Of a stretch of 64,000 nt of DNA, positions 37,798 through 57,960 are shown piece after piece. Source of the DNA: Leptolyngbya sp. SIO1E4. Its GTDB lineage: Bacteria > Cyanobacteriota > Cyanobacteriia > Phormidesmidales > Phormidesmidaceae. The notes under the pieces were generated by a model. It saw only the letters and a list, made by a program, of their open reading frames with translations. It was not told the origin of the DNA and searched no databases. The stretch is taken from the NCBI GenBank assembly GCA_010672825.2, contig JAAHFU020000001.1, forward strand, positions 124,001 through 188,000. Reading direction: 5' to 3'. The stretch's first letter is position 1. Every line of letters begins with the position of its first letter. A program made the translations under genes and the position numbers.

Positions 37798-40700
37798 ATG
37801 ATCGTCCTTGAAACCCTCCTCGCCGTTGCTACCGAGAAAGTTGGTGAGAGGCTTCTCACTGGCCTCAACGCCAAACTGAACCCCCAAGCGCTTGAAACCT
37901 TCTTAAGGCAAGCGGTAAAGGCGGCGAATGAAGCTCAGCCGGATCTTTTCTTCTCTTTTCAGGAGGATGGGGTGCAGGGCTATGGGGCTTTTCTCAATCA
38001 GTTCTTTAAAGGACGCGCCTGCTCGGAATTGCAAAAGCCATTGGAAGAAACCCAAGGTTATCCAGACGTTGCCTTGTTAACTGAAGCCCTTTGGAAGGAC
38101 GCTGTAGAGCACCCGAAGCTCAACTGTTTGAACAAAGCCAACATTGAGCCCTGGATGCAGGAATTTGTCGCCACCTATTTCCGCGAGACTAACCGATCGC
38201 TCCAGTTTCAGATTATTCAGGCCGATTACTGTGACCAGATTCGCCGTGTCTTTGACGATGTGAAATTTGCAGGCATCGCCGTTGAGGGGCAAGACATAGA
38301 CCGCGCTGAGCGCTTGGCCGACATTTTTGTGATGCCGGATGTGCAAGAAGACGACGCAGGAATGCGAGGCATCTCAGACGACATGCCACCTGAAGCCATG
38401 GAGGATCCGCAACAGCGCCTTCTGTGGGAGCAGCGCCAACAGATTTTGATCTCTAAACAGCGCACCAGCGGAGGCAACTTCTCAGCCGCAGATCTGCTGA
38501 CCAAAGGCAAAACCAACCGCGCGGTGCTATTGGGAGCACCCGGCTCAGGCAAAACGACCCTGATGAACTACTTTGCCGTAATCGCCTGTTCAAGAGATCA
38601 ACTCGATGAGAATCGTGGCTCCCCTACCTTCCCCATCTCTCGCACCTCCCTCGTGCCCATCCTCATTCGTATCCGAGATCTCGCCCGCCAGCCCGATCTC
38701 TCTATCCTCGAATTTGTGCAAGATTTTGCCCAAAAAGACCTCGCAATCACACGCGATCTCACTGGCTTTTTTCAATATTACTTAGAGAACGGCAACACCC
38801 TGATCCTGCTGGATGGGCTGGATGAAGTGGCGGATATTGCGCAGCGCTACAAAGTCGTGGAGAAAATTGAAGCCTTTCTCAGTCAGTTTGAGCACTGCCC
38901 CGCCATCATCACCTCTCGCCCAGCCGGATACAAACGCGACTTCTTTCGGACTGATGAATATCCCCATTATGAGCTGCAGCCCTTTAACGATGAAAAAATT
39001 GAAACCTTCATCGACCATTGGTACGACAGCCGCTTTGAACTAGAAAGTGAGCGAGAACGGCGGCAAACTAGCTTGCGCAAGGCCCTCAATGACCAGCCCC
39101 GCATTAAACAGCTGGCCCGTAATCCGCTGTTGCTCACGATCATTGCACTGATCCATCGCTATCAGGCCAAACTACCGAAAGAACGCTACAAGCTGTATGA
39201 CAAAGCAGTAGAAACCCTACTCACCACCTGGGATAGTAACAAAGAACTGAGCAATCACGAGATTTTGGAATACCTGGAACTGGACGACCTGCGGCGGCTG
39301 ATGGAACGGCTAGCCTATTGGATTCACTGCCAGGGGGGGACTGGAGATACTGAAGGCGGCACGCTGATTGACCGGGATGAATTGATTACTCAGCTGACGC
39401 AGTACATCCGAGAAATGAAGCGGGTGGAGCGGCACCAGGCTAAGGCGGAAGCTAAACGCTTTTTAGAACAGATTGTGCGCGATCGGGCGGGATTGTTGAG
39501 TCTGCAAGGGCAAGACCGCTATGCGTTTGTGCACAAAACCTTTCAGGAATACCTGACAGCGATGGAAATTCGAGATCGGCAGGAGGAAGGGTTTGAGGTA
39601 GTGCTGGAACACATTGAAGAATACCTGCATAATCCCCATTGGGAGGAGGTGTTGCTGCTGTTGATTGCCCAGCAGAAGCGAAATAACCCGATCAAGGTGT
39701 TGCAGGCAATTTTGGCCCACGACACGCCGTATGAGCGATGGCTGCATCGTAACCTGCTATTTGCAGGGAGAGTACTGGCTGAGAACGTTCCGGTTGCGGA
39801 TACCGAATTAGCGGGCTCCATTATCAGCCACCTTATGGAATTAGACGTTACCCAATCGCCACTGGGAACTGACAAGCTACGCAGTCGAATTTTCCGCGTT
39901 GTTAGCAGCCTGTCTGAAACTGCTTTTGAAGACATTGCCCTGAAGCTGTTAGAGAATCATAAAAATGACCTAGGACGTTGGCGATACTTAGATTACCAAG
40001 GTGCATTAGCACCAGATCAAGCAGTTGGGTTGCTGTTAGTTCTGCTCCAAGATGACGAGTCTGATGTGCGTTATCGCGCCGCTGAGGCGTTGGGACAGCT
40101 GGGGCAGGGCAGCGATGCGGTGGTCGCGGCCTTACTCCCCTTGCTCCAAGATGACGAGTCTGATGTGCGTTCTCACGCCGCTGAGGCGTTGGTAAAGCTG
40201 GGACAGGGCAGCAATGCGGTGGTCGCGACCTTACTCCCCTTGCTCCAAGATGACGAGTCTGATGTGCGTTCTCACGCCGCTGAGGCGTTGGTAAAGCTGG
40301 GACAGGGCAGCAATGCGGTGGTCGCGACCTTACTCCCCTTGCTCCAAGATGACAAATTTTTTGTGCGTTCTCGCACTGCGGAGGCGTTGGGACAGCTGGG
40401 GCAGGGCAGCGATGCGGTGGTCGCGGCCTTACTCCCCTTGCTCCAAGATGACGAGTCTCTTGTGCGTTCTAGCGCCGCTGAGGCGTTGGGACAGCTGGGG
40501 CAGGGCAGCGATGCGGTGGTCGCGGCCTTACTCCCCTTGCTCCAAGATGACAAGTTTTTTGTGCGTTCTAGCGCCGCTGAGGCGTTGGGACAGCTGGGGC
40601 AGGGCAGCGATGCGGTGGTCGCGGCCTTACTCCCCTTGCTCCAAGATGACGAGTCTTTTGTGCGTTTTAGCGCCGCTTTAGCGTTGGCAAAGCTGGGGCA

Positions 40701-41301
40701 GGGCAGCGATGCGGTGGTCGCGGCCTTACTCCCCTTGCTCCAAGATGACGAGTTTTTTGTGCGTTCTAGCGCCGCTTTAGCGTTGGTAAAGCTGGGGCAG
40801 GGCAGCGATGCGGTAGTCGCGGCCCTACTCCCCTTGCTCCAAGATGACAAGTCTTTTGTGCGTTCTCGCACTGCGGAGGCGTTGGGACCGCTGGGGCAGG
40901 GCAGCAATGCGGTGATCGCGGCCTTACTCCCCTTGCTCCAAGATGACGAGTCTCTTGTGCGTTCTCGCGCCGCTGTTGCGTTGGGACAGCTGGGGCAGGG
41001 CTCTGATGCAGTGGTCGCGGCCTTACTCTCCTTACTCCAAGATGACGAGTCTTTTATGCGTTCTCGCGCCGCTGTTGCGTTGGTAAAACTGGGGCAGGGC
41101 AGCGATGCGGTGGTCGCGGCCTTACTCCCCTTGCTTCAAGATGACGAGTCTCTTGTGCGTTCTCGCGCCACTGTTGCGTTGATTAATCTTGATAAACAGT
41201 CAGATCAGGTTGAACCGGCTCTGGTTCAGTGGATCGAGCAACATCAAACCGAAGACTTTGTGGGTCAGGGGGTTGATGTGCTGTGGGAACTGGTGGGCTG
41301 A
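37798..41301 (+). CDS. NACHT NTPase with HEAT repeats (NLR-like)
   Basis: 1167 aa. N-terminal helical region (1-240, unrecognised), NACHT STAND NTPase at about 240-420 with Walker A GAPGSGKTT (246-254) and Walker B LILLDGLDEVAD (335-346), TSRPAGYKR sensor, then winged-helix/helical parts ending with FVHKTFQEYLTAMEI typical of these proteins. Residues about 742-1140 are twelve HEAT-type units of 33 residues. Similar NLR-like bacterial proteins are known or suspected in phage defence and signalling. Whether the N-terminal part is an effector cannot be said. No nuclease or other known effector motif was seen. Confidence 0.88.
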   Translation: MIVLETLLAVATEKVGERLLTGLNAKLNPQALETFLRQAVKAANEAQPDLFFSFQEDGVQGYGAFLNQFFKGRACSELQKPLEETQGYPDVALLTEALWKDAVEHPKLNCLNKANIEPWMQEFVATYFRETNRSLQFQIIQADYCDQIRRVFDDVKFAGIAVEGQDIDRAERLADIFVMPDVQEDDAGMRGISDDMPPEAMEDPQQRLLWEQRQQILISKQRTSGGNFSAADLLTKGKTNRAVLLGAPGSGKTTLMNYFAVIACSRDQLDENRGSPTFPISRTSLVPILIRIRDLARQPDLSILEFVQDFAQKDLAITRDLTGFFQYYLENGNTLILLDGLDEVADIAQRYKVVEKIEAFLSQFEHCPAIITSRPAGYKRDFFRTDEYPHYELQPFNDEKIETFIDHWYDSRFELESERERRQTSLRKALNDQPRIKQLARNPLLLTIIALIHRYQAKLPKERYKLYDKAVETLLTTWDSNKELSNHEILEYLELDDLRRLMERLAYWIHCQGGTGDTEGGTLIDRDELITQLTQYIREMKRVERHQAKAEAKRFLEQIVRDRAGLLSLQGQDRYAFVHKTFQEYLTAMEIRDRQEEGFEVVLEHIEEYLHNPHWEEVLLLLIAQQKRNNPIKVLQAILAHDTPYERWLHRNLLFAGRVLAENVPVADTELAGSIISHLMELDVTQSPLGTDKLRSRIFRVVSSLSETAFEDIALKLLENHKNDLGRWRYLDYQGALAPDQAVGLLLVLLQDDESDVRYRAAEALGQLGQGSDAVVAALLPLLQDDESDVRSHAAEALVKLGQGSNAVVATLLPLLQDDESDVRSHAAEALVKLGQGSNAVVATLLPLLQDDKFFVRSRTAEALGQLGQGSDAVVAALLPLLQDDESLVRSSAAEALGQLGQGSDAVVAALLPLLQDDKFFVRSSAAEALGQLGQGSDAVVAALLPLLQDDESFVRFSAALALAKLGQGSDAVVAALLPLLQDDEFFVRSSAALALVKLGQGSDAVVAALLPLLQDDKSFVRSRTAEALGPLGQGSNAVIAALLPLLQDDESLVRSRAAVALGQLGQGSDAVVAALLSLLQDDESFMRSRAAVALVKLGQGSDAVVAALLPLLQDDESLVRSRATVALINLDKQSDQVEPALVQWIEQHQTEDFVGQGVDVLWELVG
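40020..41200 (+). repeat. twelve 99-bp tandem repeats in the NACHT gene
   Basis: Exact 99-bp spacing (e.g. TTACTCCCC at 40132 and 40231). Units 2 and 3 are identical in protein. Differences cluster at the DESDVR/DKFFVR/DESLVR and AEALVKL/AEALGQL positions; the GQGSDAVVAALLPLLQDD stretch is nearly invariant even at the DNA level, indicating recent unequal recombination or gene conversion. Confidence 0.9.
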
Positions 41302-42790: not shown

Positions 42791-42818
42791 GCCCCCTTGA
42801 TGTAGCCATCAAGGGGGC
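42791..42818 (-). terminator. intrinsic terminator of the 15-residue-repeat gene, copy 1
   Basis: Perfect 12-bp stem GCCCCCTTGATG / CATCAAGGGGGC with a 4-nt loop; on the minus strand it is followed by TTTATTC. Placed 78 bp after the stop of the gene at 42896. The homologous stem follows the second copy at 57244. Confidence 0.85.
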
Positions 42819-42895: not shown

Positions 42896-43561
42896 TTAGC
42901 TCTTCTCCAGATTCTCGCGACGAACCTCATCTAGATTGACCGCGTCCTTATCCAGGTTCTCGCGACGCAGTTGATCAAAATCTACAGCATCGGCTTTAAG
43001 CGTCTCGCGACGGAGATCATCAAAGTTGGTGGCTTTCACCTGTAGCTCAACCACTGCGTCCTTGTCTAAGTTCTCGCGGCGCAGTTCGTCGAAGTTGACC
43101 GCGTCTTTATCCAGGTTCTCGCGACGCAGTTCATCAAAGTCAACACCTTTTGCCTGTAGCTCAACCACGGCGTCCTTGTCTAAGTTCTCGCGGCGCAGTT
43201 CGTCAAAGTTGACCACATCTTTGTCGAGGTTTTCGCGGCGCAGCTCATCAAAATCAACGCCTTTTACCTGTAGCTCAACCACGGCGTCCTTATCCAGGTT
43301 CTCGCGGCGCAGTTCGTCGAAGTTGACAGCGTCTTTGTCGAGGTTTTCACGACGCAGTTCATCAAAGTCGATCTCTTTGAGCTGAATCTCAGCCACCGCA
43401 TCTTTGTCCAGATTTTCGCGACGCAGCTCATCGAAGTTGACGGCATCCTTATCGAGGTTTTCGCGGCGCAGTTCGTCAAAATTAGGTGCGGCGTGGGCGG
43501 CAGGTGCCACTGCGATAGAAACAGCGGTCAGAGCAGTCAGGGCAAGAGCAATGCGTTTCAT
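42896..43561 (-). CDS. secreted 15-residue-repeat protein (FDELRRENLDKDAV), copy 1
   Basis: 221 aa, not recognised. Signal peptide MKRIALALTALTAVSIAVAP with AHA cleavage, then eleven units of FDELRRENLDKDAV. Units alternate: a plain 15-residue unit starting N/D, and a 23-residue unit with the tail VELQVKGV or AEIQLKEI, giving a 38-residue higher-order period. The last three units have drifted (FDDLRRETLKADAV, FDQLRRENLDKDAV, LDEVRRENLEKS). Highly charged, probably helical. Codons for identical residues differ between units (Leu, Asp, Lys, Arg), so the protein sequence is under constraint. Leader, terminator and paralogue are shared with the gene at 57310. Confidence 0.8.
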   Translation of the reverse strand: MKRIALALTALTAVSIAVAPAAHAAPNFDELRRENLDKDAVNFDELRRENLDKDAVAEIQLKEIDFDELRRENLDKDAVNFDELRRENLDKDAVVELQVKGVDFDELRRENLDKDVVNFDELRRENLDKDAVVELQAKGVDFDELRRENLDKDAVNFDELRRENLDKDAVVELQVKATNFDDLRRETLKADAVDFDQLRRENLDKDAVNLDEVRRENLEKS

Positions 43562-43685
43562 AATTGGGGCTCCTTTCGTCGCTTTAACGACTCAATCATC
43601 TTGAGTCCTATAGTGGCGTCCGCCTCTGAGCCCTGACTGACTGAGAAATAAGCTGAGTCTAATGGCTTCCTGAGAAAACTGAATT
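43562..43685 (-). promoter_or_regulatory. conserved promoter and hairpin leader of the repeat gene, copy 1
   Basis: On the minus strand: CACTATAGG (-10-like), then ACTCAAGATGATTGAGT (hairpin, 43590-43606), GTCGTTAAAGCGAC (hairpin, 43578-43591, overlapping by 2 nt), then AAAGGAGCC before ATG. The same order occurs upstream of 57834; about 75 bp further upstream (TTCTCAGGAAGCCATTAG) is also conserved. Confidence 0.65.
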
Positions 43686-57035: not shown

Positions 57036-57150
57036 GATCGCAGTTATCAAAAACTAGCAGACTGAAGTAATTACTGGGGCTGAGTGTATCTATGCAGGCA
57101 GGGTGCGAGTACCTTGTGCCTGATGAGCATCGAAGCAGCTTGGCAAGCGC

Positions 57151-57184
57151 CACAAAAAGGCTCCAATCGTCACCGATTGGAGCC
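57151..57184 (-). terminator. strong intrinsic terminator (second in series)
   Basis: Perfect 11-bp stem GGCTCCAATCG / CGATTGGAGCC, 4-nt loop; on the minus strand followed by TTTTTGTG. It lies 60 bp beyond the repeat-gene terminator at 57244, as a back-up stop or the end of another transcript. Confidence 0.85.
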
Positions 57185-57243
57185 CCTGGTGCCTCCAAGA
57201 TGATTGAACACATAGAGGAGTTCCGGCACCAAGCTTCAATAAA

Positions 57244-57271
57244 GCCCCCTCAATCGCTGCATCAAGGGGGC
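57244..57271 (-). terminator. intrinsic terminator of the 15-residue-repeat gene, copy 2
   Basis: On the minus strand GCCCCCTTGAT pairs with ATTGAGGGGGC (two G-U pairs), followed by TTTATTG. Same position and sequence type as 42791-42818 after copy 1. Confidence 0.8.
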
Positions 57272-57309: not shown

Positions 57310-57834
57310 TTACTGCAGCTCAACCACGGCATCTTTATCCAAGTTTTCCCGACGCAATTCGTCAAAATTTACCGCGTCTTTGTCGAGGTTCTCGCGACGC
57401 AACTCATCAAAGTCAACAGCTTTTACCTGTAGCTCAACCACGGCGTCCTTATCCAGATTCTCCCGACGCAATTCGTCGAAATTTACTGCATCTTTGTCGA
57501 GGTTCTCGCGACGCAGTTCATCAAAGTCAACGGCTTTTACCTGCAGCTCAACCACGGCGTCCTTATCCAGATTCTCCCGACGTAGCTCGTCGAAGTTGAC
57601 CGCGTCTTTGTCGAGGTTTTCACGACGTAGCTCATCAAAGTCGATCGCCTTGAGTTGAATCTCAGCCACCGCATCTTTGTCTAGATTCTCTCTGCGTAGC
57701 TCATCGAAGTTGACGGCATCCTTATCGAGGTTCTCGCGGCGCAATTCGTCAAAATCCGGTGTGGCGTAGGCGGCAGGCGAGATCGCGATAGAGACAGCGG
57801 TCAAGGCAGTTAAAGCGAGGGCAATGCGTTTCAT
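57310..57834 (-). CDS. secreted 15-residue-repeat protein (FDELRRENLDKDAV), copy 2
   Basis: 174 aa, paralogue of the gene at 42896. Signal peptide MKRIALALTALTAVSIAISP, cleavage near AYA-TP, then eight units in four regular pairs: D-FDELRRENLDKDAV then N-FDELRRENLDKDAV plus VELQVKAV (AEIQLKAI in the first pair). All eight units keep FDELRRENLDKDAV unchanged while synonymous codons vary (for example Leu CTC/TTG/CTG and Asp GAC/GAT). It ends abruptly after VELQ; no drifted tail units. Shares leader and terminator with copy 1. Confidence 0.8.
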   Translation of the reverse strand: MKRIALALTALTAVSIAISPAAYATPDFDELRRENLDKDAVNFDELRRENLDKDAVAEIQLKAIDFDELRRENLDKDAVNFDELRRENLDKDAVVELQVKAVDFDELRRENLDKDAVNFDELRRENLDKDAVVELQVKAVDFDELRRENLDKDAVNFDELRRENLDKDAVVELQ

Positions 57835-57960
57835 CTTTAGGGCTCCTTTGGTTGCTTGAGCAACTCAATCATCTTGAGTCCTATAGTGAAGCCCGCCTCT
57901 GAGCCCTCCCTGACCAGGAAATAAGCAAACCCTAATGGCTTCCTGAGAAAGCTGAGTGCC
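57835..57960 (-). promoter_or_regulatory. conserved promoter and hairpin leader of the repeat gene, copy 2
   Basis: Minus strand: CACTATAGG, ACTCAAGATGATTGAGT hairpin (57863-57879), then GTTGCTCAAGCAAC hairpin (57851-57864), AAAGGAGCC and ATG. The first hairpin is identical in copy 1. The second differs at three bases, and two of these form a compensating T-A to C-G exchange. Confidence 0.65.

Follow-up and report, generated by a model that had tools for sequence, protein, structure and literature searches.

The window, a stretch of 64,000 nucleotides (C1:124001-188000) from the 8.2 Mb genome of Leptolyngbya sp. SIO1E4 (G000), carries two repeat-protein genes on its minus strand. Copy 1 (42896..43561) encodes 221 amino acids with 11 units and copy 2 (57310..57834) encodes 174 amino acids with 8 units, both counts agreeing with a preliminary description of this DNA made from its letters. 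The unit in both genes is FDELRRENLDKDAV and the mature repeat contains no methionine. As that description had it, both proteins begin with what looks by eye like a normal Sec-type signal peptide (MKR, a hydrophobic stretch, then AHA or AYA), which in copy 1 reads MKRIALALTALTAVSIAVAPAAHA (43490..43561). The array of copy 1 (42899..43480) has units starting at residues 28, 43, 66, 81, 104, 119, 142, 157, 180, 195 and 210. Spacing alternates between 15 and 23 residues, giving the 38-residue higher-order period originally proposed, but runs 15/15 at the array end; likewise the proteins are nearly, but not wholly, built of units, as pairs are split by spacers of 8-9 residues such as VELQVKGVD. 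Upstream of copy 1 lies a conserved promoter with CTCAG boxes and a -10-like CTATAG followed by a 5′UTR block, CTCAAGATGATTGAG (43594..43685), and the corresponding promoter and 5′UTR block of copy 2 are conserved at 57867..57957. Both genes end in a strong hairpin terminator (42791..42818 for copy 1, 57244..57271 for copy 2), and in copy 2 this is followed by a conserved RNA element that includes a second terminator (57139..57240). Elsewhere in the window, positions 37798-41301 encode what is by eye a NACHT-like NTPase in which many HEAT-like repeats of almost the same sequence (LLQDDESxVRSxAAxALGQLGQGSDAVVAALLP) follow one another, a run that seems to have expanded recently.

Comparison of units within each gene gave pS 0.79 and pN 0.014 for the first eight units of copy 1 and pS 1.01 and pN 0.009 for copy 2, while copy 1 against copy 2 gave pS 0.52 and pN 0.029. 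Identical residues are thus spelled with differing codons, and this dN/dS-type count showed no non-synonymous excess between units. Since synonymous differences are saturated and non-synonymous differences near zero, the protein is, on these counts, under strong purifying selection, in line with the earlier claim that the amino acids are held by selection. An excess of identity at lag 2, together with exact repeats of 35-38 nt compared with 19-23 nt in codon shuffles, points to the 38-residue pair as the duplicating block. AlphaFold models are helices throughout at low confidence (pLDDT 69 and 53).

The two genes 14 kb apart first described prove to be an undercount. We identified nine full, dispersed Sec-type copies in the genome along with a divergent one and fragments, the Sec-exported proteins bearing 3-14 tandem copies of the motif at a spacing that varies within and between lineages (mostly 13, 15, 16, 18, 22 and 23 residues). 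The promoter-proximal region noted as common to copies 1 and 2 extends far more widely, all nine copies having the CTCAG boxes, the -10-like CTATAG and the leader CTCAAGATGATT. A search of five genomes with the 20-base promoter core (CTATAGRACTCAAGATGATT, ≤ 2 mismatches) matched only Sec copies and one promoter-only site, while the reversed control gave 0 matches in the same genomes. Judged by these upstream sequences, all Sec copies stand behind one dedicated promoter type except the divergent paralogue (L066, C2:404950-405534), whose units are FDQLRNENRNKAV/FDQLRNENRDKGAV and whose upstream sequence differs. Apart from antisense artefacts of the repeat, the Sec copies have no flanking genes in common, and two of those in G000 have syntenic counterparts in other genera; an origin of the copies as mobile elements was rejected on both grounds.

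The repeat family is apparently undescribed, highly expanded and without a fitting curated model. Its sole library match was TIGR02953, the pentapeptide MXKDX repeat proteins, to which the two window proteins scored 47.3 and 42.5 bits at full length against a cut-off of 41, but 33.6 bits without the signal peptide. Members of that family are likewise small exported repeat proteins with KD-containing repeats, but the Sec copies lack methionine in the mature repeat and the defining MxKDx pentapeptide is absent from copies 1 and 2; with the mature sequence also below the cut-off, membership is doubtful, and the earlier statement that no characterised family fits still holds. Pfam matches of the repeat were inconsistent and below cut-off, and a ribbon-helix-helix score of 22.8 against 21.6 bits on one changed-unit protein was taken as stray. 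Sequence searches of the PDB found no relative, the similarity that tblastn reported to pentapeptide-repeat proteins of Priestia plasmids (21-22 %) and to two uncultured phages (29-30 %) seems to be due to low complexity, and no published description of the unit or the Sec family was found in the literature searched. Oscillatoria sp. CS-180 and Nodosilinea sp. FACHB-131 do have relatives.

The same unit occurs in a second type of gene. At C8:6133-6300 the genome of the window encodes a 56-residue peptide, MNQESAKDAAKKDEQLSDDQLKEVSGG-VNFDQLRRENLDKDASNLDELRRENLDKD, consisting of a double-glycine (GG) leader and two units, and its gene points away from an adjacent NHLM-type export operon. The usual reading of NHLM operons is that they export bacteriocins; in cyanobacteria, NHLM-type clusters are common and are classed as bacteriocin clusters, and for most of them no product is known. 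The operon encodes a cyclic-nucleotide-binding protein (TIGR03896, 212.6 bits, over cut-off), a short HlyD, a C39-peptidase ABC transporter (TIGR03796, 1113.1 bits, cut-off 853.3) and a second ABC transporter (TIGR03797, 984.2 bits, cut-off 709.4). The HlyD protein matches only the first 55 of 421 positions of TIGR03794 (74.9 bits, cut-off 156.2); it is ~190 aa long (L071 7850-8434 and equivalents), and about 185-240 aa in all relatives. The peptide and operon recur in the same layout in a further 14 genomes (G006, G009, G022, G025, G027, G030, G032, G064, G066, G067, G072, G073, G074 and G078); in some of them the layout runs off the contig. Five more genomes (G031, G126, G203, G285 and G291) have it with changed units. 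In every further genome of the family with this layout the core of the peptide is two units or two leader-core repeats. GG peptides carry 1-2 units per leader, and several of them (L027/L075, L076, L162 and that of family f24) contain a second internal GG site whose cleavage would free two peptides. A model of the peptide matches 40 of 65 genomes of the family. Across the class it matches 42 of 390, of which four belong to family f24 and all others to the family of the window; its weak matches are GG peptides with changed cores. All C39 transporters associated with the unit fall in one clade. In G000 a second NHLM system, with a HlyD of full length, lacks a unit peptide, and in one g3 genome (L253, G002:C5:7417000-7436900, and L258) the GG gene lies beside HlyD alone with the ABC genes ~300 kb off.

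The exporter itself is known in kind, belonging with the NHLM/NHLP bacteriocin export cassettes TIGR03794, TIGR03796 and TIGR03797 (PMC2887384) and the cyanobacterial bacteriocin clusters of group V, which have two-CAP_ED proteins (PMC3140520). It shares with them the C39-peptidase ABC transporter, the second ABC transporter, HlyD, a two-CAP_ED protein and an adjacent double-glycine peptide. Unlike those cassettes, the HlyD is short, the leader of the peptide is short and not of the NHLP or Nif11 kind, the core is a charged repeat, no modification enzyme was recognised in the GG locus and Sec-exported paralogues bear the unit of the peptide. The NHLP and Nif11 leader models TIGR03793 and TIGR03798 gave no match to A1 peptides, and the f24 peptide fell below both cut-offs (19.7 vs 50.9 and 17.6 vs 32.3, respectively).

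Changes in the unit are matched between the GG and Sec forms of a lineage. GG cores of the g3 and g13 genomes read NSVHxxRLEHLDNQSK-SVKDIQxxRLEHLDNQSK; having met the RLEHLDNQ(S/T)K unit in GG peptides, we predicted Sec proteins of the same unit and then found them in those genomes; individual genomes have as many as 58 matches, most of them lying in ORFs of 145-230 aa with signal-peptide-like starts, while G000 has none. Family f24 has RFDEARRENLDKG in both forms, and G203 of that family has RDNLNK in both. Among the 15 genomes that yielded to motif extraction (five others dropped out), the best match of the GG units was in every case the Sec units of their own lineage. Permutation within lineages gave p = 0.007, in a test that is confounded by phylogeny and so bears on matched change without proving coupling; such change can also arise from shared ancestry with no functional coupling. 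Recent gene conversion is an unlikely source of the match in G000, since codon spelling differs as much between GG and Sec units (180/320) as among Sec units (715/1320). The three unit types are inferred to be homologous from their common gene position, leader and RxE(N/H)LD core, and the RLEHLDNQ unit is probably derived, because both f24 and the early-branching L083 transporter go with RENLDK-like units. The two forms are not an obligate pair, as each is found alone, GG without Sec in G030 and G074 and Sec without GG in G001, G011, G014, G019 and G034.

The RNA element downstream of copy 2 is a conserved hairpin found 3′ of many other Sec genes, between the terminator of the gene and a second terminator; copy 1 has none. 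Its stem is GGUGCC/GGCACC, and its loop contains an anti-SD CUCC and UCAAUCAUCUUG, the exact complement of the Sec 5′UTR. In the loop, GAACTCC and UCAAUCAUCU complement, in the right order, the ribosome site GGAGUUC and the leader block AGAUGAUUGA of Sec mRNAs, the longest exact complements averaging 11.0 nt compared with 5.2 in shuffles. Where the leader has changed to GATTAA, in L011 and L101, the loop has the matching TTAATC. A covariance model gave 24 matches in 6 of 16 genomes and none in the other ten, with weaker but positioned matches 3′ of the GG genes in G000, G022, G027 and G032. Folding of the copy 2 element gives -41.5 kcal/mol (z -5.0), largely through its terminator, no base pair had changed at both positions in RNAalifold, which leaves the stem without covariation support, and energies of the duplex between element and own 5′UTR were mixed against shuffles (z -0.4 to -5.3, copy 2 only -0.5). 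Our prediction that the element is an antisense RNA is accordingly drawn from the length of exact complementarity and from conservation, and not from duplex energy. At the gathering score no Rfam family matched the window, and elsewhere L003 had only a chance-level one (E 0.52). At three places the element is kept without an intact CDS, one of them L297. At L088 (G022:C30:139128-139352) a full promoter, leader and 3′ RNA element have no CDS between them, and directly after a PstB-like gene two orthologous decayed Sec copies (L296, G000:C3:79384-79480, and L298, G022:C29:20197-20289) retain terminator and RNA hairpin with a degenerate CDS.

Taken at the level of genes, these data suggest that one secreted repeat leaves some mat-forming cyanobacteria by two export routes. 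From them we infer export, processing, binding, a role in the matrix and action of the RNA as follows. A motif of ~12 residues (FDELRRENLDKD in the lineage of the window) would act outside the cytoplasm. By the first route, nine or more genes in G000 would supply Sec-exported tandem-motif proteins, bead-on-string polymers located at the cell surface, in the sheath or in the mat matrix; by the second, the C39 peptidase of the NHLM-type exporter would cut the two-unit peptide after GG and export it, and the short peptide would meet the same partner as linker, nucleator or competitor. The 3′ hairpin RNA, its loop complementing leader and ribosome site, probably tunes translation of the Sec mRNAs.

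The closest precedent we considered is EbfG1-4 of Synechococcus elongatus PCC 7942, which in the cited sections of two reports are GG peptides exported by a C39 transporter (PteB) and were shown in that organism to be biofilm matrix and cell-surface proteins, EbfG1-3 being amyloid-forming (PMC4997328, PMC9981879). The GG peptide described here is likewise small, with a double-glycine leader and a C39 exporter in a cyanobacterium, a likeness drawn here from the genes. Going by those sections, it differs from EbfG in its tandem FDELRRENLDK-type unit and its Sec-exported multi-unit counterpart (PMC4997328, PMC9981879), and a charged, predicted helical unit sets it apart from the amyloid segments. 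A conserved unit with free spacing fits independent binding motifs on a string, and high copy number behind one dedicated promoter fits a bulk product. Together with the EbfG precedent this pattern leads us to favour a multivalent, EbfG-like extracellular ligand of mat or sheath, made as bulk Sec polymers and a short GG peptide, over a bacteriocin or a pheromone, at a probability of about 0.4. The scaffold, ligand or metal-binding role originally suggested would narrow accordingly, since free unit spacing favours a multivalent ligand over a geometric scaffold and metal binding finds no support. More tentative is an extension to self or kin recognition or a matrix system, in which one ligand motif, delivered as Sec polymers and NHLM peptide, would diversify in step in each lineage under the tuning of dispersed 3′ antisense RNAs common to both gene classes.

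The Sec proteins could instead be polyprotein precursors of a peptide signal or pheromone, cut outside the cytoplasm, with the GG peptide delivering the same signal through C39 cleavage. The low number of units per GG leader, the internal GG sites, the occurrence of either form alone, as alternative routes to one product, and lineage-specific unit changes resembling pheromone specificity all suit such a signal, which is possible but doubtful, as no conserved protease site was found outside the unit, no linked receptor kinase was seen and some ten genes with eight or more units each go far beyond what a signal needs. A bacteriocin system, with an antimicrobial GG peptide and Sec repeats serving as decoys, immunity factors or additional toxins, is unlikely. 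In its favour are the exporter of NHLM/cyanobacterial group V type (PMC3140520) and the f24 peptide, which scores just over the cut-off of the CTB bacteriocin model NF038167 (32.6 vs 32; A1 14.5, A3 none) and over that of TIGR01847 (23.2 vs 15.7), though both f24 matches sit at leaders. The core, moreover, is highly charged, with no cysteine, few serine or threonine ring residues and few hydrophobic residues, and no modification enzyme or immunity gene was recognised beside the GG peptide.

A purely structural coiled-coil or helical filament nucleated by the GG peptide would recall curli, in which CsgA and CsgB are long and short exported proteins with one common repeat. By description curli differ from the Sec/GG system in repeat, predicted fold and export. 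The low-confidence helix predicted throughout and the short and long subunits with common units are consistent with a filament, but spacings mostly of 13 to 23 residues would break a fixed helical register, which binding motifs on a string would tolerate better, and Sec-only genomes would lack the nucleator, making this reading improbable. Least credible is a selfish or neutral dispersed cassette, a unit of promoter, gene and terminator copying itself. Its many dispersed copies, homology limited to promoter through RNA element, and CDS-less and decayed copies are what such a cassette would leave, but the strong purifying selection on the protein, synteny of some Sec copies between genera and corresponding changes in a GG gene that is not linked all speak against it, and neither transposase nor terminal repeats were found.

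Because the GG peptide has its unit in common with a large Sec family that has its own promoter, and the two change together across lineages, a non-antibiotic role of NHLM-type exporters becomes directly testable and is tied to the biology of mats. The 3′ RNA element that many Sec genes share with some GG genes offers a regulatory link open to experiment.
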